Assembly: GCA_036378675.1 (NCBI GenBank)
Contig: DASUWA010000017.1
Span: forward strand, 62,001-126,000
From: Acidimicrobiales bacterium
Lineage (GTDB): Bacteria; Actinomycetota; Acidimicrobiia; Acidimicrobiales; Palsa-688
Length of the DNA stretch: 64,000 bases
Reading direction: 5' to 3'
The position numbers were made by a program, and so were the translations under genes. Positions 2,044 to 21,460 of this stretch are shown here, piece by piece. The stretch's first letter is position 1; the number at the start of each line of letters is the position of its first letter. The notes beneath the pieces are model-generated. The model had not been told where the DNA came from, made no database searches, and worked only from the letters and a program-made list of their open reading frames with translations.

Positions 2044-2849
2044 TCTCGTTCGTCGGCGCGGGACCCGGAGCGGCGGACCTGCTCACGATCAGGGGGGCCA
2101 AGCGCCTGGCTGGCGCGGATGTCGTCATCTGGGCGTCGTCGCTCGTGCCCGAAGAGCTGCTGACCCACTGCCGCAACGAAGCAGAGATCCATGACTCTGC
2201 GGTCATGACCCTCGAGGACGTCGTAGACGTCTACCGCCGCCATCCGGAGTCGTCGCAGATCGTGCGGCTGCACTCGGGTGACCCGAGCATCTACGGCGCC
2301 ATCGGCGAGCAGATCGACTGGTGTCTCGAGAACCGTCGCTCGTGGGAGATCGTCCCCGGAATCAGCTCGGTGACCGCGGCCGCCGCGATCATCGGAAAAG
2401 AACTGACCCAACCGGGTGTCTCGCAGAGCGTCGTGCTGACCAGGCTTGCCGGTCGCACCAGTTCGTCGATGCCGGCGCGCGAAGGGGTCGAGCAGTTTTC
2501 TCGTCACGGATCTTCGATGGCCGTCTTCCTGTCCGGCGCCCGTCCCGACGAGCTGGCGTCCGAGTTGCTGGGGACCGAAAGCGGTTACCGACCCGACACG
2601 CCGGCGGCGATAGTGATCCGCGCCACCTGGCCCGACGAAAGGGTGATCTTCACCACGGTGGGCCAGTTGGCCGACGACCTGAAGTCGACGGGGACGACGC
2701 TGACCGTCCTCGTTCTGGTCGGCGACTTCCTCGCCGATCTCCCCGTCGCCAGGCGCTCGCATCTGTACTCCCCCGGTCACTCCACGGCGTACCGTCTTCG
2801 CTCGAAGCCGGGTTCGACCGCCGGACGGCCCTCGGCCCGCCGGCGTTGA
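2040..2849 (+). CDS. cobM: Precorrin-4 C11-methyltransferase
   Basis: 269 aa, usual length for CobM/CbiF. Transfers a methyl group from SAM to C11 of (cobalt-)precorrin-4. Family motifs: ISFVGAGPGAADLLTIRGA at the N terminus, RLHSGDPSIYGAI in the cofactor loop, EIVPGISSVTAAAA, and a C-terminal region ending in a basic tail. The ATG overlaps the cobI stop as ATGA; the next gene overlaps its stop as TTGA, so expression is probably translationally coupled along the row. Confidence 0.95.
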   Translation: MISFVGAGPGAADLLTIRGAKRLAGADVVIWASSLVPEELLTHCRNEAEIHDSAVMTLEDVVDVYRRHPESSQIVRLHSGDPSIYGAIGEQIDWCLENRRSWEIVPGISSVTAAAAIIGKELTQPGVSQSVVLTRLAGRTSSSMPAREGVEQFSRHGSSMAVFLSGARPDELASELLGTESGYRPDTPAAIVIRATWPDERVIFTTVGQLADDLKSTGTTLTVLVLVGDFLADLPVARRSHLYSPGHSTAYRLRSKPGSTAGRPSARRR

Positions 2850-3958
2850 GACAGCAGCCTCACGAGCCGCCGCTCTCACCGGAGGTCGCCGGGGCGAAGG
2901 GACTCCGGACCGGCTGGACGACCGGAACGTGCACCGCTGCGGCGGCCAAGGCCGCGGTGACCGGCCTGCTCACCGGTCAGGTCCCGGAAACAGTCGAGGT
3001 CGGCCTTCCTTCCGGAAAAAGGGTCGCCTTCGATGTGGTGGACGCTGATCCCTCCGAACCGTGGCGCGCTGCTGTCGTCAAGGACGCCGGAGATGATCCC
3101 GACGTCACCAACGGGGCTCACCTGACGGTGGAGGCTCGGTGGCTTCCCGTCGGCTCTCCGGCCGGGACGGTCGAGCTCGTCGCGGGCGACGGCGTCGGCA
3201 CGATCACCCTGCCCGGGCTGGGGCTCGAGGTTGGCGCGCCTGCCATCAATCCGGTTCCGGCCCGAATGATCAGAGCCGCTGTTGCGGAGGTCGCCGACCG
3301 TCCGGTGTCGCTGACCGTTTCGGTACCGGGCGGAGAGGAGATGGCGTCGAAGACGTCCAACGCCCGCCTCGGGATCATGGGCGGGATCTCGATCCTCGGG
3401 ACCACAGGTGTGGTGCGCCCGTTTTCGACGGCGTCGTGGCGGGCGAGCGTTGTGCAGCAGGTAGATGTGGCGGCGGCCCAGGGACGCGACGTGATAGTGC
3501 TTTCAACGGGCGGGAGGACCGATGCGGCAGCCCAGCGGTTGCTACCGGAACTGCCGCCGGTCTGCTTCGTAGAGGTCGGGGACTTCACCGGGATAGCCCT
3601 CCGGCGCGCCGCCGGCGCCGGGATGTCCAGGGTCGTGTTCGTCGGGATGGCCGGCAAGATCGCCAAGCTCGCTGCTGGCGTGCTGATGACCCACTACCGA
3701 AGATCCAAGGTGGATGTCGAGATGCTGGCCGAGGTCGCCCGCGCGTCGGGGGCGCCCGCCGCTGTCGTATCTGCCGCGACCGAGACTGCCACCGCTCGGC
3801 ACTTCGCCGAGGTGTGCGTCCGCGAACGATCATTGGACCCGCTTGCAGAGCTGTGCCGTCGGGCTTCTGCATCGTGCACCGAATTTGTCAACGGAACCCT
3901 CGATGTCGAGGTGATCATGGTCGACTTCGAAGGAGAACAGGTGCTGGCCCGTGGATAA
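2846..3958 (+). CDS. cbiD: Cobalt-precorrin-5B C1-methyltransferase
   Basis: 370 aa. CbiD methylates C1 of cobalt-precorrin-5B in the anaerobic (early cobalt) route, so its presence tells which route this organism uses. Seen: the N-terminal signature GLRTGWTTGTCTAAAAKAA, KTSNARLGIMGGISILGTTG in the middle and FVGMAGKIAKLAAGVLMTHY towards the end. No ATG or GTG lies between the cobM stop and the conserved N terminus; the TTG at 2846 overlapping that stop (TTGA) is the best start. Confidence 0.93.
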   Translation: MRQQPHEPPLSPEVAGAKGLRTGWTTGTCTAAAAKAAVTGLLTGQVPETVEVGLPSGKRVAFDVVDADPSEPWRAAVVKDAGDDPDVTNGAHLTVEARWLPVGSPAGTVELVAGDGVGTITLPGLGLEVGAPAINPVPARMIRAAVAEVADRPVSLTVSVPGGEEMASKTSNARLGIMGGISILGTTGVVRPFSTASWRASVVQQVDVAAAQGRDVIVLSTGGRTDAAAQRLLPELPPVCFVEVGDFTGIALRRAAGAGMSRVVFVGMAGKIAKLAAGVLMTHYRRSKVDVEMLAEVARASGAPAAVVSAATETATARHFAEVCVRERSLDPLAELCRRASASCTEFVNGTLDVEVIMVDFEGEQVLARG

Positions 3959-13510: not shown

Positions 13511-14060
13511 TGGTCTCCACCTTGGGACGGCGGTCCAACGCGTAGAAGGCCACGATCATCACGACCCCGACGACGATCGACGAGTCGGCCACGTTGAACA
13601 CTGGCCACCAATCGTGTTGGCCGACCCGAGCCGCGGCAATGAAATCGATCACCGCCCCGGGGTGGGCCGGAATGTGACGGAAGAACCGATCGCCGAGGTT
13701 TCCGGCTGCGCCGCCGAGGATCAGGCCTAACGCGATCGTCACCGGCCAACCGGTCCCCCAGGCGGCCCGCCTGCCGAATAGGACCAGCCCTGCGACGACG
13801 GCGAACACCCCGATCTCGACCAGAGGGGTGACGCCACGACCCAGCCCGAAGGCCGCCCCTCTGTTGAACGTCAAGTCGAACCAGAGCGTCCAGATGACGT
13901 GACGAGGTGAATTGGCGTGGTGCAGAGCCCAGGTTTTGCTCACCTGGTCGGCGGCGGTGACCGCGGCAGCAATCACGGGCACGGCAACGCCGCGAACCGC
14001 CAGAGCTGATGGAACGGCTACCGCCGAGCGGAGAGCCCGCCGCTCTTGCAAGAGACGCAC
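13503..14060 (-). CDS. lspA: Lipoprotein signal peptidase (signal peptidase II)
   Basis: About 185 aa. Membrane aspartyl protease that cleaves prolipoproteins; a likely client is the LivK lipoprotein encoded nearby. Catalytic Asp residues in GAAGNLGDRFF and FNVADSSIVVG; AADQVSK ends the first helix and LTFNRGAAFGL is conserved. Four membrane segments. The start is uncertain: GTG 14060 (used) or TTG 14051 keep an Arg ahead of helix 1 and overlap the upstream gene, while GTG 13982 gives a shorter 159-aa protein. None has a good ribosome site. Confidence 0.88.
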   Translation of the reverse strand: MRLLQERRALRSAVAVPSALAVRGVAVPVIAAAVTAADQVSKTWALHHANSPRHVIWTLWFDLTFNRGAAFGLGRGVTPLVEIGVFAVVAGLVLFGRRAAWGTGWPVTIALGLILGGAAGNLGDRFFRHIPAHPGAVIDFIAAARVGQHDWWPVFNVADSSIVVGVVMIVAFYALDRRPKVETNG

Positions 14061-14956
14061 AGCGCGGCGTATGGGAGTGCCTGGAGGCGGGCGTCGGGAA
14101 TGGGATCGCCGCACTGCTCGCAGAACCCGTAGGTGCCCGCCTCGATCTTGGCCAGGGCTCGATCTATCTCTGCCGCCGCCGAACGGGCCTGGGCCGAAAG
14201 GACCAGATCCAATTCCCGATCGATGTTGGAGGTGCCGCCCTCGCCGCCTTCTTCGTCGAACTGGACATCGCCCGGTTCGTGTTCCAGGGCAAGGGAGTCC
14301 GCCTGGGCTTTGAGCGCCTCGGCCGAGCGTATGTACTGGTCCTTTTCTTCGAGCAGCAGCTGGCGCTGCTTCTCGAAGAATGCAATCCGGTCGGCTCTAG
14401 GTTTGGCGGCGACCTTTGCTGGTGCCTTGTGTGTACCGGCCGTGGGCGCCGCCGGCGCCTTCGCGGCTGCCGACTTCGAAGGGGCTGACTTGGTGGCGGC
14501 CTTTGCCTTAGCCGGTTGGGTCTTCGACGGTAACGACTTGGGCGCCGGGGCGTGGGACCTTGCCGGCTGTGAGGTCGCCTTCACCTTCGCCGGCTGGGCC
14601 TTCACCTGCGCCTGCTGGGGCTTCGCCTTCGCCGGCTGGGCCTTCGACTGGGCCCTCGGCTGGGCCTTGGATTGCGCCGCTGGGGCCTTTGACTGGGATT
14701 TCACTGGTGATTGCGTCCTCGACTGCGACTTTGCTGGTTGAGACTTGGAGGGGCTCTTCGCCTGCTGGGTTCTCGGCTGGGCTTTCGTTGGCTGGGTCCT
14801 TGACTGGGCCTTCGCCGGCTGGGTTCTCGACTGCGCCGGCTGGGTTCTCGACTGCGCCGGCTGGGTCCGCGCCTGGCTCGATGGCGAGCTACGTGCCCTG
14901 CCCGTGGACTTCGCCGGCGCCTTGCTGGCTGCTTTGGCTGGCTTCTTCAATGGCAT
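14018..14956 (-). CDS. DksA/TraR-type zinc-finger protein with long Lys/Ala/Gln-rich N-terminal tail
   Basis: 312 aa. C-terminal 120 residues: coiled-coil-like segment (IAFFEKQRQLLLEEKDQYIR), an acidic patch, then a four-Cys zinc finger C279-x2-C282-x17-C300-x2-C303 as in DksA/TraR. Residues 1-188 are low complexity, built on short units such as RTQPAQS and KAQPAK, with many Lys/Arg and almost no acidic residues, resembling histone H1 tails. DksA proteins act in the RNA polymerase secondary channel with ppGpp; actinobacterial relatives include CarD-independent regulators of uncertain role. The tail suggests nucleic-acid binding (inference). Divergent from ileS across 117 bases. Confidence 0.85.
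   Translation of the reverse strand: MPLKKPAKAASKAPAKSTGRARSSPSSQARTQPAQSRTQPAQSRTQPAKAQSRTQPTKAQPRTQQAKSPSKSQPAKSQSRTQSPVKSQSKAPAAQSKAQPRAQSKAQPAKAKPQQAQVKAQPAKVKATSQPARSHAPAPKSLPSKTQPAKAKAATKSAPSKSAAAKAPAAPTAGTHKAPAKVAAKPRADRIAFFEKQRQLLLEEKDQYIRSAEALKAQADSLALEHEPGDVQFDEEGGEGGTSNIDRELDLVLSAQARSAAAEIDRALAKIEAGTYGFCEQCGDPIPDARLQALPYAALCVSCKSGGLSARR
14817..14870. repeat. 21-bp tandem repeat coding RTQPAQS units
   Basis: Two exact back-to-back 21-bp copies (14817-14837 and 14838-14858) plus a partial third, inside the tail of the DksA/TraR-type gene. Exact identity at DNA level points to recent duplication. Confidence 0.9.
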
Positions 14957-15073: not shown

Positions 15074-18000
15074 ATGCCCGGAGGCCCCCGACCGAAGTAC
15101 CCGGACGTCCCAGCATCCCCCCGGTTTCCGAAGATCGAGACTGAGATTCTCGAGACCTGGGAGGGAGAGGACACGTTTCGGCGCTCCGTCGAACAACGCC
15201 CCGACAGCAACGAGTTCGTGTTCTACGACGGTCCACCATTCGCGAACGGGCTGCCGCATTACGGCCACTTGCTGACCGGTTACGTCAAGGACGTCGTTCC
15301 CCGATACCGAACCATGGTTGGCCAGAAGGTCGAGCGCCGTTTCGGTTGGGACTGCCATGGTCTGCCTGCGGAGACCGAAGCACAGAAGGAACTGGGAGTG
15401 TGGGGCCGCGGCCCCATCGCCGAGTACGGCATTGCCCGCTTCAACAGCTACTGCAAGGCGTCGGTCCTCCGGTATACGCAGGAGTGGGAGCGTTACGTCA
15501 CCCGCCAGGCTCGCTGGGTCGATTTCCGCAACGACTACAAGACGATGGACACGTCCTACATGGAAAGCGTCATGTGGGCGTTCAAGCAGCTGTGGGACAA
15601 GGATCTCCTCTACGAGGATTACCGGGTCCTCCCCTACTGCTGGATCTGCGAAACTCCTCTTTCCAACTCCGAGACGCGCGTCGATGACGCCTACCGGGAC
15701 CGTCAGGACCCGGCTGTCACCGTGGCCTTCAAACTTCAACCGGACCCGTCGGCATTGCCGGAAATATCCGGACCGGTCGACTTGTGGGTTTGGACGACCA
15801 CACCCTGGACGCTGCCGTCCAACCTTGCATTGGCGGTCGGCCCGGACGTGGAGTACGCGGTGTACCGGCGCGAAGGCACCTCTTTTTCTCTCGGAGCTGA
15901 CGTTGTAGGGACCTTCGAGAAGGATCTCGCGGGTGCCGAGCGAGTCGGGACCGTACGAGGCGCGGACCTGATCGGCCGAAGCTACGAACCGCTCTTTCCG
16001 TACTTTGCAGGGACCGAAAATGCTTTCGTCGTTCTCGGAGCCGGCTTTGTGACCACGGACGAGGGCACCGGGATCGTCCACATGGCCCCGGGCTTCGGAG
16101 AGGACGACCAGATCGTCTGTGCCGAAGCTGGGATCCCGGTGGTGTGCCCGGTCGACGACCGTGCTCTTTTCACCGGCGAGGTGACCGACTTCGCCGGACT
16201 CCAGGTCTTCGACGCCAACCAGCCGATCATCAGGGCTCTCCGGGACACGGGTTCACTGATCCGGCAGGACTCGATCGTTCACGCCTACCCCCACTGCTGG
16301 AGAACCGAGAACCCCCTCATCTACAGGGCGGTGAGCTCGTGGTTCGTAAAGGTCACCGCGATCAAGGACCGGCTGCTCGCGCGCAACCAGGAGATCCAGT
16401 GGATACCCGAGCACGTGCGCGATGGGTCATTCGGCAAATGGCTCGCCAACGCGCGTGACTGGTCGATCTCGAGAAATCGGTTCTGGGGATCGCCCATTCC
16501 GGTCTGGAAGAGCGACGATCCCAACTACCCCCGCCTCGACGTGTACGGCAGCCTGGACGAGATCGAGCGGGACTTCGGCGTCAGGCCGACCGACCTGCAC
16601 AGGCCCCGCATAGATCAGCTCACCCGTCCCAACCCGGATGACCCTACCGGTCGCTCGTCGATGCGGAGAGTCACCGATGTCCTCGACTGCTGGTTCGAGT
16701 CGGGCTCGATGCCGTTCGCCCAGGTCCACTACCCGTTCGAGAACCGTGACTGGTTCGATGCTCACTTCCCAGGCGACTTCATCGTCGAGTACATCGGCCA
16801 AACCCGCGGCTGGTTCTACACGCTGCACGTCCTTGCGGTCGCCCTCTTTGACCGGCCCGCGTTCAAGCGTTGCCTGGCCCACGGCATCGTCCTCGGAGAA
16901 GACGGCCAGAAGATGTCCAAGCGGCTTCGCAACTACCCGGACCCCGAAGCCATGTTCGAGGTTCACGGCGCCGACGCGATGCGGTGGTTCTTGATGTCGT
17001 CCCCCGTGTTGCGCGGCGGGAACCTGATTACTGATGAAAAGGGGATAACGGACGCAGTACGGGCGGCTCTGCTTCCTTTCTGGAACGCGTGGTACTTCTT
17101 CGCGCTGTACGCCAACGCCGATGGGAGGTCGGCAACTCTGGGGCGGACGGACGCGCCCGGAACGCTCGACCGCTACGTGCTTGCCAAACTTCGGCAACTC
17201 GTAGAAGACGTAACCGCAGAGCTCGACGCCTACGACCTTTCCGGCGCGTGTGACTCGATCGAAGCATTCTTGGATGCTCTGACCAACTGGTACATCCGCC
17301 GGAGCCGTGATCGGTTTTGGGGAACCGGCGCCGAGGGATCGGCGACCGACGACGCATTCGACACGCTCGGCACCGTCCTCGAAGTTCTCTGCCGCGTCGC
17401 CGCGCCTCTCTTGCCTTTGGTGAGCGACGCCGTCTGGCTCGGACTGGTCTCGGGCTGCGCCGAGAGCCGGGGACGTTCGGTGCACCTCGAGGACTGGCCC
17501 GATCCGACCGCGTTGCCGTCGGACCCAGATCTCGTCGCAGATATGGACTGGGTCCGGGAGATCTGCTCGGCCGGCCACTCAATTCGCAAAGCCAACGGCC
17601 TGCGCGCCCGACTACCCCTGTCCCAGCTCACCGTCGCCGCGGCAGGAGCTGAAAAGCTTCGCGGCTATATCGATCTGATCGCTGACGAAGTGAACGTGAG
17701 GAACGTCGAGCTGACCGAGGACACCGACCGGTTCGCCACACGAACACTCAGCGTCGCGTTTCCGGTGGCCGCACCGAGGTTGGGTCCGGCCACCCAGGCC
17801 GCGGCCGCGGCCGCCAAGCGAGGTGACTGGGAGATTCTCGATGACGGCACGGCGAGAGTGGGCGAAAGCGTTCTCGAACCGGGCGAGTTCGAGCTCCGGG
17901 TGCGCCCGCTCGACGAAGCAACTACGAGAACATTGGGCGGGAACGTAGGTGTCGTTGCACTCGATACGACGTTGGACGACGACCTGCTCGATGAGGGCAG

Positions 18001-18274
18001 GGCGCGCGACCTTGTCCGATTCGTCCAGCAAGGCCGGCGGGATATCGGGCTGCAAGTGACCGACCGCATCGCGTTGGAGCTCGCCGGCGACGAGCAGGTC
18101 CGGCGTTCTCTTGACGCGCACCGCGAATGGATCGCGGAGCAAATCCTCGCCACCGACATTCAGTGGCTCGGGACCGAGCCAGTGTCTTCCCAGGACCCAT
18201 CGGGTGCGTGGGCAGCGACGTCCTTGGCCGACGGTTCCTCGGTGTCGGTCAGGATCAAGCGGTCGGCCGCGTGA
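15074..18274 (+). CDS. ileS: Isoleucyl-tRNA synthetase (type 2, eukaryote-like)
   Basis: 1066 aa. Charges tRNA-Ile. Class I signature HYGH (in [18 protein letters not shown]) and KMSKR (in [14 protein letters not shown]), an editing domain between them ([17 protein letters not shown]), an anticodon-binding region ([12 protein letters not shown]) and a long C-terminal extension. The length and DGPPFANG segment fit the type 2 form; members of that group are known to tolerate mupirocin, which acts on type 1 enzymes. ATG start with a weak ribosome site. Monocistronic, facing convergent genes. Confidence 0.95.
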
Positions 18275-18330: not shown

Positions 18331-19626
18331 TTAGCGCTTCCGAGGCTGCGATGCGGCCTGACCCGTCGCCTTCTTGGCCGCCTTCTTCGCGGGCTGGGCC
18401 GTCGTCTTGCCCGCGGCTGCCTTGGTCGCCTTCGCAGGCTGCTTCGCAGGCGTCGCCTTTCCGGCAGCGGTCCTCGGAGCCACGGCCTTTGAAGTAGAAG
18501 CCTTAGAAGCGGCCGTCTTGGATGCGGCCGTCTTGGATGCAGCCGTCCTTGATGCAGGCGCCTTGGACGCAGCCGTCCTTGATGCAGGCGCCTTGGACGG
18601 AGCAGCCTTCGACGCCGCCGCCTTGTTGGTGGTCGCGCTCCTGCCGGTCGCTGCGGCCTTGGTGCCTTGCACCGCCTTCTTCGCGGTTGTCACCGGTGCC
18701 CGACCGGCTGAGCGCGCCCCTGCGCCTGTCCCGGTTGCCTTCGCGGCGCCACCCGCTGTGGATGCCGCCGCCCGTCCCGTCGCCGCAGTCCGCTTTTCGG
18801 CTAACCCGGCCCCCGCAGCCGCAGGCTTGGGAGCAGCCTTCTTCGCAGTCGGGCCGGCGGCTCTCCGCGCAGCAGGAGCTGCTGCGGGAACTCGGGCCGG
18901 GGCTGGCATTGCGGGTGCCTGTGGCTCGCGCCCGAGGAGCTCGTCGATCTTGGCGACAATGGTTGCGCGAGCCTTGGTGTTGACCTCTCTATCGCGCACG
19001 TCCTCGAGTTCGTCGCCCTCCAACTGCGGTAGCAGCGGAAGAATCTCGGCGACTCGAAGGTCGTCGTAGTCCTCGATCGGGAAGACGACTTCGTCGCCCC
19101 ACTCTTCCTCCCACTCGCCTGGCTCCTCCCAATGACCCTGCCCCGCAGCGTCCTGAGCGCCTGCGTGGGCGAACTCGGGTAGCGGCTCCCTGCCGAACAC
19201 CGGAGCCGTTTGCACCGGCTGCGGCCTTGTGGGCTCGAGCACCTCCACTTCCTCTTCTTCGAATTCGTACTCCCCGGGGAACGCAGCGCCTCCAGGGGTG
19301 AGCGCCGGCTCTTCTGCAACTCCGTACGACGGCGCGGGCTGCCGTTCGGGTGCCGGGCGAGGCCGGAGATCCATCCCCTCGTCGGCGCGGGAGCGGGCGA
19401 GCAACGGCGGGGCCGCAGCGGCAGGAACCCCTTCAATCGCCAGCCGCACCGCCCGCCGGCGGCTCAGGCGGCTGAAGACGATGAGCGCGATCCCCGCGAC
19501 GGCCGCGCATGCGATCGACAGGTAGATCAGGCTCAGCGAGTCCTGCACGAACCCGACGATCAATAGAACCAGGCCGGCAAACACCAGCGCGACGGTCACC
19601 AACAGCAACACAAGATCACCTTCCAC
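18331..19626 (-). CDS. Membrane protein with acidic middle and histone-H1-like Lys/Ala tail
   Basis: 431 aa, not a named family to me. Two membrane helices at about 5-27 and 33-52, then SRLSRRR, which puts the rest in the cytoplasm. Residues 110-180 are strongly acidic (EFEEEEVEVLE, WEEPGEWEEEW). A compact segment at about 183-233 (YDDLRVAEILPLLPQLEGDE, then ARATIVAKIDELLG) has a helix-hairpin pattern seen in many actinobacterial proteins. Residues 240-431 are Ala/Lys/Thr/Ser-rich with AASKA and AAKKA units, like histone H1. Lies downstream of divIVA in the division cluster. A role tethering DNA to the membrane is only inference. Confidence 0.75.
   Translation of the reverse strand: MEGDLVLLLVTVALVFAGLVLLIVGFVQDSLSLIYLSIACAAVAGIALIVFSRLSRRRAVRLAIEGVPAAAAPPLLARSRADEGMDLRPRPAPERQPAPSYGVAEEPALTPGGAAFPGEYEFEEEEVEVLEPTRPQPVQTAPVFGREPLPEFAHAGAQDAAGQGHWEEPGEWEEEWGDEVVFPIEDYDDLRVAEILPLLPQLEGDELEDVRDREVNTKARATIVAKIDELLGREPQAPAMPAPARVPAAAPAARRAAGPTAKKAAPKPAAAGAGLAEKRTAATGRAAASTAGGAAKATGTGAGARSAGRAPVTTAKKAVQGTKAAATGRSATTNKAAASKAAPSKAPASRTAASKAPASRTAASKTAASKTAASKASTSKAVAPRTAAGKATPAKQPAKATKAAAGKTTAQPAKKAAKKATGQAASQPRKR
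18511..18598. repeat. 15-bp and 30-bp tandem repeats in the Lys/Ala tail
   Basis: Exact 15-bp pair at 18511-18525 and 18526-18540, followed by an exact 30-bp pair at 18539-18568 and 18569-18598. They encode ASKTA and ASKAPASRTA units of the tail. Confidence 0.9.
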
Positions 19627-19754: not shown

Positions 19755-20600
19755 TCAACGGCGCCGGCGCAGCCTTCCTCCGAAGCGCCGGTCGTCGCCG
19801 AACCCTTCGGGATCGTCGAAGAATTCGTCCATGGCCCTTTCGTCCGGGCCGATCGAAGCATCCGAGGGACGGACGTCGACGACGCCGGCCTGTAGCGGCG
19901 GGGCGAACGACTGAGCGGCGACCGTAGCTTGCTCGCCGAGCATCTCCTCTCGATCGATCCCTTCGTCTGCGGGCGACCACGCGACGGTCTCCGGTCCTTC
20001 GACCGCTATGTCGGCGGGCGGAGGGGGAGGGGCGCTCCCCCGGGTGGACTGCGGTACGTCGGCCGGGCGCGGATCGGGAGCCGGCCACATGACTCCGATG
20101 CGCTCCACAGACGCCAACGCTTCGGACAAGCTGGTCTGGACGTGGGTCTTGTGCTCCTCCAGCCAGCGCTCGAGCGTCTCCACCTCCTGATGCGACTGGG
20201 CGCGAGCGGACTCGAGCCGCGCAAGCTCGGCGCGGCTCTCGGCGAGGGAATCCTCGAGGGTCTGCCGTCCCTTGTCCTCCGCCTCGGCCAGGATCGCTTG
20301 AGCCTGCTGTTCGGCTCCGGCGAGGATTCGGGCGGCTTGCTCCCGGGCTTCCTGAACGGCGAGGTCGGCCGTTCGCTGCGCCAGCACCAACGTCTTGCGG
20401 AGGGTTTCGTCAGTCCCGCCCGCCTCGGCGGCGGCGGACTCGGCCCTTTGGGCCCGCTCGACCGCCTGGCGTAGACGCTCCTGCATGACTTCGAGCCCCG
20501 CGGCGACCTGCTCGAGGAAGTGGTCGACATCCTCCGGGTGGTATCCGCGCATCTTCTCGCGGAACTCGACTTCACGAAGGGTCTTCGGCGAAACCTCCAT
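19755..20600 (-). CDS. DivIVA-domain protein
   Basis: 281 aa. N-terminal DivIVA lipid-binding segment (PKTLREVEFREKMRGYHPED, then VDHFLEQVAAGLE) followed by a long coiled coil to about residue 170, a Pro-rich stretch, and a basic end (GGRLRRRR). DivIVA proteins mark curved membrane at poles and septa; in actinobacteria relatives (Wag31, SepIVA) direct wall growth. Position after sepF and yggT matches that role. Which of the actinobacterial paralogues it is cannot be settled here. Confidence 0.87.
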   Translation of the reverse strand: MEVSPKTLREVEFREKMRGYHPEDVDHFLEQVAAGLEVMQERLRQAVERAQRAESAAAEAGGTDETLRKTLVLAQRTADLAVQEAREQAARILAGAEQQAQAILAEAEDKGRQTLEDSLAESRAELARLESARAQSHQEVETLERWLEEHKTHVQTSLSEALASVERIGVMWPAPDPRPADVPQSTRGSAPPPPPADIAVEGPETVAWSPADEGIDREEMLGEQATVAAQSFAPPLQAGVVDVRPSDASIGPDERAMDEFFDDPEGFGDDRRFGGRLRRRR

Positions 20601-20656: not shown

Positions 20657-20929
20657 TCAAATCGGCAGGTTGCCGAGGACGCCCTGGACGAAAATCTCGA
20701 CGACGATGAAGGCGACGAAAAACGAGAGGTCGAACATGCCCACCGGCGGGATGATCCGCCGGAATGGCGCCAGCACCGGTTCGGTAAGGGTGAACACAAC
20801 CCGGCGGACCGGGTTCAACGGCGAGTCAGAGCTGTACGGAAACCAGCTGAGAATCGCTCGGGCGAACAGGACGAGCACGTAGATCTGCCCGAGGTCGTAA
20901 AGCGGGTTTCCCCCGCGGAAGCTGACCAC
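20657..20929 (-). CDS. YggT family membrane protein
   Basis: 90 aa. Two hydrophobic segments (IYVLVLFARAILSWFPY; MFDLSFFVAFIVVEIFVQGV) around the family motif RRVVFTLTEPVLAPFRRIIP. YggT proteins sit between sepF and divIVA in many Gram-positive division clusters; their molecular role is not well defined. Confidence 0.9.
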   Translation of the reverse strand: MVSFRGGNPLYDLGQIYVLVLFARAILSWFPYSSDSPLNPVRRVVFTLTEPVLAPFRRIIPPVGMFDLSFFVAFIVVEIFVQGVLGNLPI

Positions 20930-20941
20930 TCGTGAGCCGGA

Positions 20942-21460
20942 TCAGGACCGGTAAAGGCCGCGTTCTTGCAGCCTTCGCTTCTCCTCGGCGGACACCTCGA
21001 CGTTGGACGGGGTGAGCAGGAAGACCTGATCGGCGACCTTGTCCATGCTTCCCGAGAGCGCGTATGTGACCCCGCTGCAGAAGTCGATCATTCGGCGGGC
21101 CAGCTCCCTGTCATTTCCCTGCAGGTTGACGATGACCGGTTGGCCGTTCTTGAACCGGTCGCCGATCTCCTGCGCGTCCGCGAACTTGCTCGGCGCTACG
21201 ACGTGAACCTTGGCGCCGTGCATCGGGGTGATGGGTCTCACGACTGCCGTTCGCGGCTGCAAAGTGACTCCGTTCGAAGGATCGGGGGCTTCTCTCACCG
21301 GGCGCACCGCCGAAACCGAGCCACTCTCAGACGGTTCGGTCGAGTATCTCCGCGTTGGAGCCGGGGCCGGCGCCGAGTCCTCATAAGGGTCGTACTCCTC
21401 GTACTCGTCGTCCGTCAGCCCCAGGTACACCATCGCCTTGCGCATGATTCCCGATGCCAT
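20942..21460 (-). CDS. sepF: Cell division protein SepF
   Basis: 172 aa. N-terminal membrane-binding helix (IMRKAMVYLGL), acidic linker, then the SepF domain from about residue 80: VHVVAPSKFADAQEIGDRFK, VIVNLQGNDRELARRMIDF, and SGMTYAL-like SGVTYALSGSMDKVADQVFL. SepF tethers FtsZ to the membrane; with no ftsA in the cluster it is the expected anchor here. Confidence 0.93.
   Translation of the reverse strand: MASGIMRKAMVYLGLTDDEYEEYDPYEDSAPAPAPTRRYSTEPSESGSVSAVRPVREAPDPSNGVTLQPRTAVVRPITPMHGAKVHVVAPSKFADAQEIGDRFKNGQPVIVNLQGNDRELARRMIDFCSGVTYALSGSMDKVADQVFLLTPSNVEVSAEEKRRLQERGLYRS

Follow-up and report, generated by a model that had tools for sequence, protein, structure and literature searches.

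DivIVA-linked DNA tethers are already known as a kind. RacA is a soluble HTH and coiled-coil protein that partners with DivIVA. In Bacillus subtilis, it ties the chromosome to the membrane, and such a tether matters to chromosome movement (PMC6593407). Rv3852 is a membrane-anchored protein with KAAK and PAAK repeats that stays DNA-bound and binds Wag31 via the Wag31 N-terminal region (PMC8233713). GlpR combines membrane helices with acidic (pI 4.05) and basic (pI 10.87) cytoplasmic disordered regions, and binds residues 1-61 of Wag31 with a Kd of about 15 uM (PMC10522489). In Rhodococcus jostii, the C-terminal PAKKA tail of MLDS binds DNA without sequence specificity; exchange of Lys to Glu abolishes the binding, and the tail is sufficient, when present on a lipid-bound protein, to recruit DNA to droplets (PMC5504291). 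Finally, the yggT homologue SepG influences both division and nucleoid organisation in Streptomyces (PMC4852450).

Here, we describe a gene at the end of an actinobacterial division cluster. Its sequence and its relatives suggest an unrecognised protein family that would link the chromosome with the cell membrane at the poles or division sites.

The gene and its product

The window, i.e. the whole stretch of DNA that was analysed, comprises 64,000 nucleotides of contig 17 of a 4.1 Mb genome (97% complete). Its minus strand carries, in this order, ftsZ, a YggS-like and a PgeF-like gene (both named by eye), sepF, yggT, divIVA and the target gene. The original prediction had placed the target at the end of the division cluster, after sepF, yggT and divIVA, and Pfam confirms these neighbours:

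15074 to 18274, plus strand: ileS, the convergent downstream neighbour (Pfam PF00133)
18331 to 19626, minus strand: hairpin-protein gene (the target), ORF of 431 aa with a GTG start and homologues elsewhere
19755 to 20600, minus strand: divIVA (Pfam PF05103, 78 bits), directly upstream, 128 bases before the target start
20657 to 20929, minus strand: yggT, ylmG/sepG family (Pfam PF02325)
20942 to 21460, minus strand: sepF (Pfam PF04472)

The target thus lies directly 3' of divIVA on the same strand, which is the gene position of the hairpin family described below. A scan that is of little value in such a genome found no terminator-like site in the gap between divIVA and the target, and its sole promoter-like site lies within the sepF region. 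On the far side of ileS, at 14018-14956 of the minus strand, the window encodes a zinc-finger protein of the TraR/DksA type that is extended at its N-terminus by a long Lys/Gln/Ala/Pro stretch. The extension is Lys/Ala-rich also in L004, L009, L012 and L017, so that two basic low-complexity proteins flank ileS.

The target protein is made of the following parts:

19447 to 19626, minus strand: membrane hairpin, residues 1-60; two helices, a short loop and an Arg-rich cytoplasmic flank; conserved family core
19087 to 19290, minus strand: acidic disordered stretch, residues 113-180; net charge -17, pLDDT <50 over most of it
18925 to 19086, minus strand: three-helix domain, residues 181-234; net charge -8, single copy in the target
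18334 to 18924, minus strand: Lys/Ala-rich histone-H1-like tail, residues 235-431; net charge +38, PAKKA present

This agrees with the architecture that had been predicted (two N-terminal helices, an acidic stretch, a helical segment and a basic tail), except that the tail has about 197 residues instead of 190. The best 19-residue Kyte-Doolittle means of the two hydrophobic helices are 3.0 and 2.4, and the helices are followed by SRLSRRR. AlphaFold places helices at residues 2-28 and 31-64 (pLDDT mostly 72-77), followed by disorder and then by the three-helix segment. Predicted alone, the three-helix domain reaches a pLDDT of 86.7; the arrangement of the hairpin relative to the domain is unreliable in model A1 (pTM 0.25). 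The 197 tail residues include 26 Lys and 13 Arg, a single Glu and no Asp; 38% are Ala, and the tail is also rich in Thr, Pro and Gly. The DNA that encodes it contains 15/30-base tandem repeats (18500-18625).

The separation into an acidic and a subsequent basic part goes beyond composition. Over 60-residue windows, the net charge of the target has a range of 34, whereas 5000 shuffles gave a mean range of 14.9 with an sd of 3.1 and never exceeded 27. Stretches with a net charge of at least +12 per 60 residues are found in 22 of 50 long non-overlapping frames of the window, which is not a clean base rate, since the overlap filter dropped the TraR frame; these stretches are mostly Arg-rich, and many of the frames are probably antisense. 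Among the same 50 frames, the target alone has a basic stretch that consists to >90% of Lys, Ala, Pro, Thr, Ser, Gly, Arg and Gln. The target frame is a real gene, because other genomes hold homologues with a conserved hairpin and domain. Single-protein family searches with the target gave no Pfam match, no NCBIfam match and nothing in PADLOC, and the histone H1-like HC2 model (PF07382) was not matched at E<=0.1, let alone at its gathering score.

Conservation of the hairpin next to divIVA

One DivIVA scan of public genomes retrieved 16 related loci, from Acidimicrobiales and other actinobacterial genome bins, and from one bin titled Acidobacteriota. The hairpin gene directly follows divIVA in nine of them (L002, L003, L004, L009, L011, L012, L013, L015 and L017), of which L015 ends at a contig edge; L003 and L018 are also truncated by a contig end. 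In five others (L005, L006, L007, L008 and L014), divIVA is directly followed by ileS and the hairpin gene is absent, so that the gene must be regarded as dispensable. The sequence of L010 stops before the region after divIVA can be read. In L016, the position of the hairpin gene between divIVA and ileS is taken, at about 2760-3450, by a VapBC-like toxin-antitoxin pair (identified by eye). L018, L019, L021 and L022 apparently represent the same species as L003, L004, L013 and L012, and each species was counted once.

For the phylum, 29 loci were screened for divIVA by tblastn, and the region downstream was inspected in those that matched, which yielded a further hairpin protein, L091, from the same genome as L105. 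A hairpin profile (A4), built from 19 Acidimicrobiia sequences and L091 as the one outside sequence, matches 40 of 246 phylum genomes at E<=0.01. The hairpin search makes no use of the gene neighbourhood, which therefore provides an independent test. In the A4 loci that were fetched, divIVA is directly upstream in 27 of 30 cases; when the seed genomes L103-L105 are left out, the figure is 24 of 27. L108 and L122, resolved via L203 and L207, are counted as adjacent. The three exceptions are a contig edge (L120), a locus with sepF and yggT from which divIVA is absent (L125), and an unlinked gene (L128).

A wider profile (A5) matches 67 of 396 Actinomycetota genomes at E<=0.001. All 67 loci were examined, and divIVA is directly upstream on the same strand in 58 (55 at first reading, and G294, G403 and G355 after longer stretches had been inspected). 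Of the remaining nine, two lie at contig edges (G316 and G159), two follow yggT without divIVA (G172 and G213), one is unlinked (G190), and four are weak matches without sepF or yggT (G110, G309, G369 and G333). The latter four are taken as chance matches; they and G190 are nevertheless kept in the 67. The target matches A4 and A5 by construction, because it is a seed of both profiles. Adjacency counts refer to genomes and not to independent events, as 14 of the 58 belong to a single genus (g138), in which DivIVA scores above the Wag31 equivalog cut-off (two genomes checked). The survey of the gene neighbourhood that had been proposed with the original prediction thus finds conservation beside divIVA and not a random neighbourhood.

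In all 62 of 62 loci, the flank C-terminal to the second helix is richer in Lys and Arg than the loop. The hairpin is conserved, and by the positive-inside rule its C-terminus is predicted to face the cytoplasm. Family f51, represented by L180 (2999-4183, plus strand) and L172, has the hairpin gene directly after sepF and yggT, with no divIVA between; in L180, there are two such genes in tandem.

Exchangeable C-terminal modules

Different types of C-terminus are found on the hairpin: an H1-like tail, a helix-hairpin-helix, an Ada-like zinc motif, an acidic region only, a proline-rich region, or none. Profiles made for this analysis assign the helix-hairpin-helix to 11 of the 67 proteins and the Ada-like motif to 10, and a basic 60-residue window of net charge at least +13 is present in 18. 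By hand count of the union, 31 of the 67 carry at least one of these modules. About half of the 67 are without a recognisable module of DNA-binding type; members of the Wag31 lineage are acidic only, and the others are bare, acidic or proline-rich. A Pfam scan (E<=0.001) of 60 members, without L161, L166, L194, L196, L197, L198 and L141 (<60 residues), detected HHH_5 in 11 and the H1-like HC2 in four. Phage_holin_3_6, DUF308, Rv2743c, DUF7269 and ASFV_J13L were matched by one or two members each and look like membrane segments or noise. In the divIVA-linked L109, HC2 (52.5 bits against a cut-off of 40) is combined with HHH_5 (50.1 bits against a cut-off of 27). The Ada-like motif has an invariant His and three Cys, and stays below the Pfam cut-off (best E-value 4.7e-5; 19.8 bits versus 23). 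A role in DNA binding is weakest for this one of the three module types.

Among the Acidimicrobiia, 10 of 16 distinct complete members reach a net charge of at least +15 per 60 residues. The 16 are the window protein and those of L002, L004, L009, L011, L012, L013, L017, L023, L024, L025, L026, L028, L029, L032 and L048; L201, with seven domains, and L030, which was not seen beside divIVA, are left out of the count. The maximum in L004 is +10, and L002, L009, L011, L013 and L032 are without a strong basic tail. The Lys/Ala tail is therefore not the conserved core of the family, being missing in several relatives and replaced elsewhere. Wherever members have both an acidic and a basic part, the acidic part comes first (15 of 15), an order that would allow the masking of the basic tail that the original prediction had suggested. 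Lys-rich tails can bind not only DNA but also RNA, polyphosphate and acidic proteins.

The three-helix domain

A profile of the three-helix domain matches 35 of 41 relatives, which are of two kinds. Strong matches (about 60 bits or more) are mostly hairpin proteins beside divIVA, whereas weaker ones represent a widespread paralogue, which is about 200 residues long and similar to the Rv1109c family of lipid-droplet proteins. In the wider class, the profile matches 56 of 119 genomes, again mostly through this paralogue. The paralogue occurs widely in Acidimicrobiia (G000:C1:56592-56732 and L033-L072), and its last part is likewise this three-helix domain. When applied to the loci with the paralogous domain (L031-L072), the hairpin profile matches only L032 and L048, which are family members.

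The domain is present once in most of the target's own family (as judged from the members read) and twice in most other families. The extreme case is L201 (3-2801, plus strand), a frame of 933 residues with the hairpin and seven three-helix domains separated by very acidic linkers; the start of this gene matches that of the gene after divIVA in L015. A second paralogue, with a hairpin and a C-terminal three-helix domain, is present in two genomes (L199:3893-5068 and L200:2079-3218), where it was not seen beside divIVA.

In relatives, the domain resembles the C-terminal part of NF033649, the Rv1109c-type model (E-value 4.3e-7 for L017; 4.8e-24 and 85.5 bits for L027, the best relative, against a cut-off of 110 bits). 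The target protein itself gave no match to this model. Pfam contained nothing worth reporting for the domain, a structural fold search gave nothing at E<=0.001, and a plasmid search found no relative. PP2A subunits, which came up in a search of the sequences of solved structures, were rejected as relatives, since the low E-value rows span merely 19-30 residues. The AND-1 SepB fold was also rejected (best Z 5.2, rmsd 5.9). We claim no fold for the domain, because a Z of 5.2 falls in the range that the tool calls common.

A possible membrane-nucleoid tether

We propose, with a probability of about 0.58, that the target belongs to an unnamed actinobacterial family in which a cytoplasm-facing, divIVA-linked hairpin carries an exchangeable C-terminus of DNA-binding type, and that it serves as a nucleoid tether at the pole or septum. 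The hairpin, together with the acidic and three-helix part, would place the protein at DivIVA patches, at the pole or septum. There, the tail would hold chromosomal DNA irrespective of sequence, like the tails of MLDS and Rv3852, so that the protein would act as a pole- or septum-located tether of the nucleoid. A membrane-nucleoid tether at DivIVA sites appears to be the best explanation because different DNA-binding types replace one another on the divIVA-linked anchor. The link between nucleoid and membrane or pole in the original prediction is thus partly supported: the recurrent exchange speaks for it, but the Lys/Ala tail is not the constant element.

The helix-hairpin-helix modules of 11 members also bear on the main rival explanation, an adaptor between proteins in the manner of GlpR/SepX. 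In such an adaptor, charged disordered parts would bind DivIVA or the divisome, without any role on DNA, and the basic tail would bind acidic proteins or membrane lipid. GlpR does have membrane helices together with disordered regions of opposite charge, and binds Wag31 1-61 (PMC10522489). Moreover, a hairpin protein of the Wag31 lineage, L175, weakly matches the SepX/GlpR model NF050099 (E-value 3.7e-4, 20.5 bits, cut-off 150). However, helix-hairpin-helix modules are DNA-binding folds that would be unexpected in a pure protein adaptor, and the best weak match to the model in the target's genome is not the target, but C46. We therefore consider this explanation unlikely, if still worth keeping in mind.

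Two further explanations have considerably less in their favour. The hairpin alone could matter, and the Lys/Ala tail could be low-complexity sequence that expanded in a high-GC genome and has no function, as its variable length and content, its absence in L009, L013, L002 and L011, and the 15/30-base tandem repeats in its DNA would allow. Against this stand the 10 of 16 Acidimicrobiia members with net charge of at least +15 per 60 residues, and the helix-hairpin-helix folds that occupy the same place in other groups and are not products of expansion, which makes it a poor candidate. Least probable of all is a tether, similar to MLDS, in which the site of attachment for DNA or the polar scaffold is a lipid body or storage granule and not the division or pole membrane. 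The idea comes from the likeness of the three-helix domain of relatives (L017 and L027) to the lipid-droplet family NF033649, and from the PAKKA tail of MLDS, which brings DNA to droplets (PMC5504291). It is difficult to reconcile with the conserved transmembrane hairpin of the target, its location in the division cluster and its lack of an NF033649 match, and no three-helix domain was seen in hairpin proteins beyond the order of the window (67-genome set).

The tether reading may be extended, tentatively and at somewhat less than even odds, to an Actinobacteria-wide family of DivIVA-coupled anchors. The anchor would be passed on together with the division cluster, at whose end it lies, its modules (H1-like, helix-hairpin-helix or zinc) would have been swapped repeatedly, and it would generally tether the nucleoid independently of sequence. 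The Wag31 lineage would have lost the module, and Rv3852 would have taken over in some mycobacteria. In open-licence papers on Rv2144c, on DivIVA tethers and on genes downstream of divIVA or wag31, we found no description of the hairpin family. It bears on the question of what, beyond ParB-DivIVA, keeps the chromosomes of actinobacteria at growing poles and septa, and a divIVA-adjacent family with interchangeable ends of DNA-binding type makes the tether question directly testable in cultured species.

Comparison with known systems

By analogy, Rv3852 may be taken as the working precedent for a tether at DivIVA sites, with GlpR, MLDS and RacA as further close precedents. The Rv3852 gene is not known to lie next to divIVA. 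Rv3852 and the target share membrane anchoring and H1-like repeats (PMC8233713). In contrast to the N-terminal hairpin of the target, the anchor of Rv3852 is a single C-terminal helix. The acidic stretch and three-helix domain of the target are not described for Rv3852 in the relevant parts of the source, and Rv3852 has been reported from slow-growing mycobacteria only (PMC8233713). The target does not match the Rv3852 model NF050153 at E<=0.1; weak tail matches to this model are found in L121 (2.6e-4) and L153 (4e-4), with a cut-off of 100 bits.

Like GlpR/SepX, an actinobacterial protein linked to division, the target is membrane-anchored and has oppositely charged regions on the cytoplasmic side (-17 and +38 in the target). 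It differs in the order of these regions relative to the helices (PMC10522489). GlpR/SepX has three membrane helices and the partner Glp, and the relevant sections of the source do not ascribe DNA binding to its basic region (PMC10522489). That the target is SepX/GlpR itself can be rejected, as it does not match NF050099 at E<=0.1 and the best weak match of its genome lies elsewhere (C46, 31.4 bits, cut-off 150). With MLDS, the target shares a PAKKA-containing H1-like C-terminal tail; the N-terminal part of MLDS is lipid-targeting and directs it to lipid droplets, and no divIVA link is described in the sections considered (PMC5504291). RacA, compared by description only, resembles the proposed role of the target in tying the chromosome to the membrane.

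The mycobacterial gene downstream of wag31 is, by gene order, presumably Rv2144c. In the open-licence literature, the sole mention of Rv2144c that we found is an entry in a table, with its function given as unknown (PMC5405230). Like the target, the gene after wag31 encodes a hairpin protein directly after divIVA (the DivIVA being above the Wag31 equivalog cut-off in the two genomes checked). Unlike the target, its product has an acidic tail only and no module of DNA-binding type. The hairpin family thus gives a possible setting to this unnamed gene.
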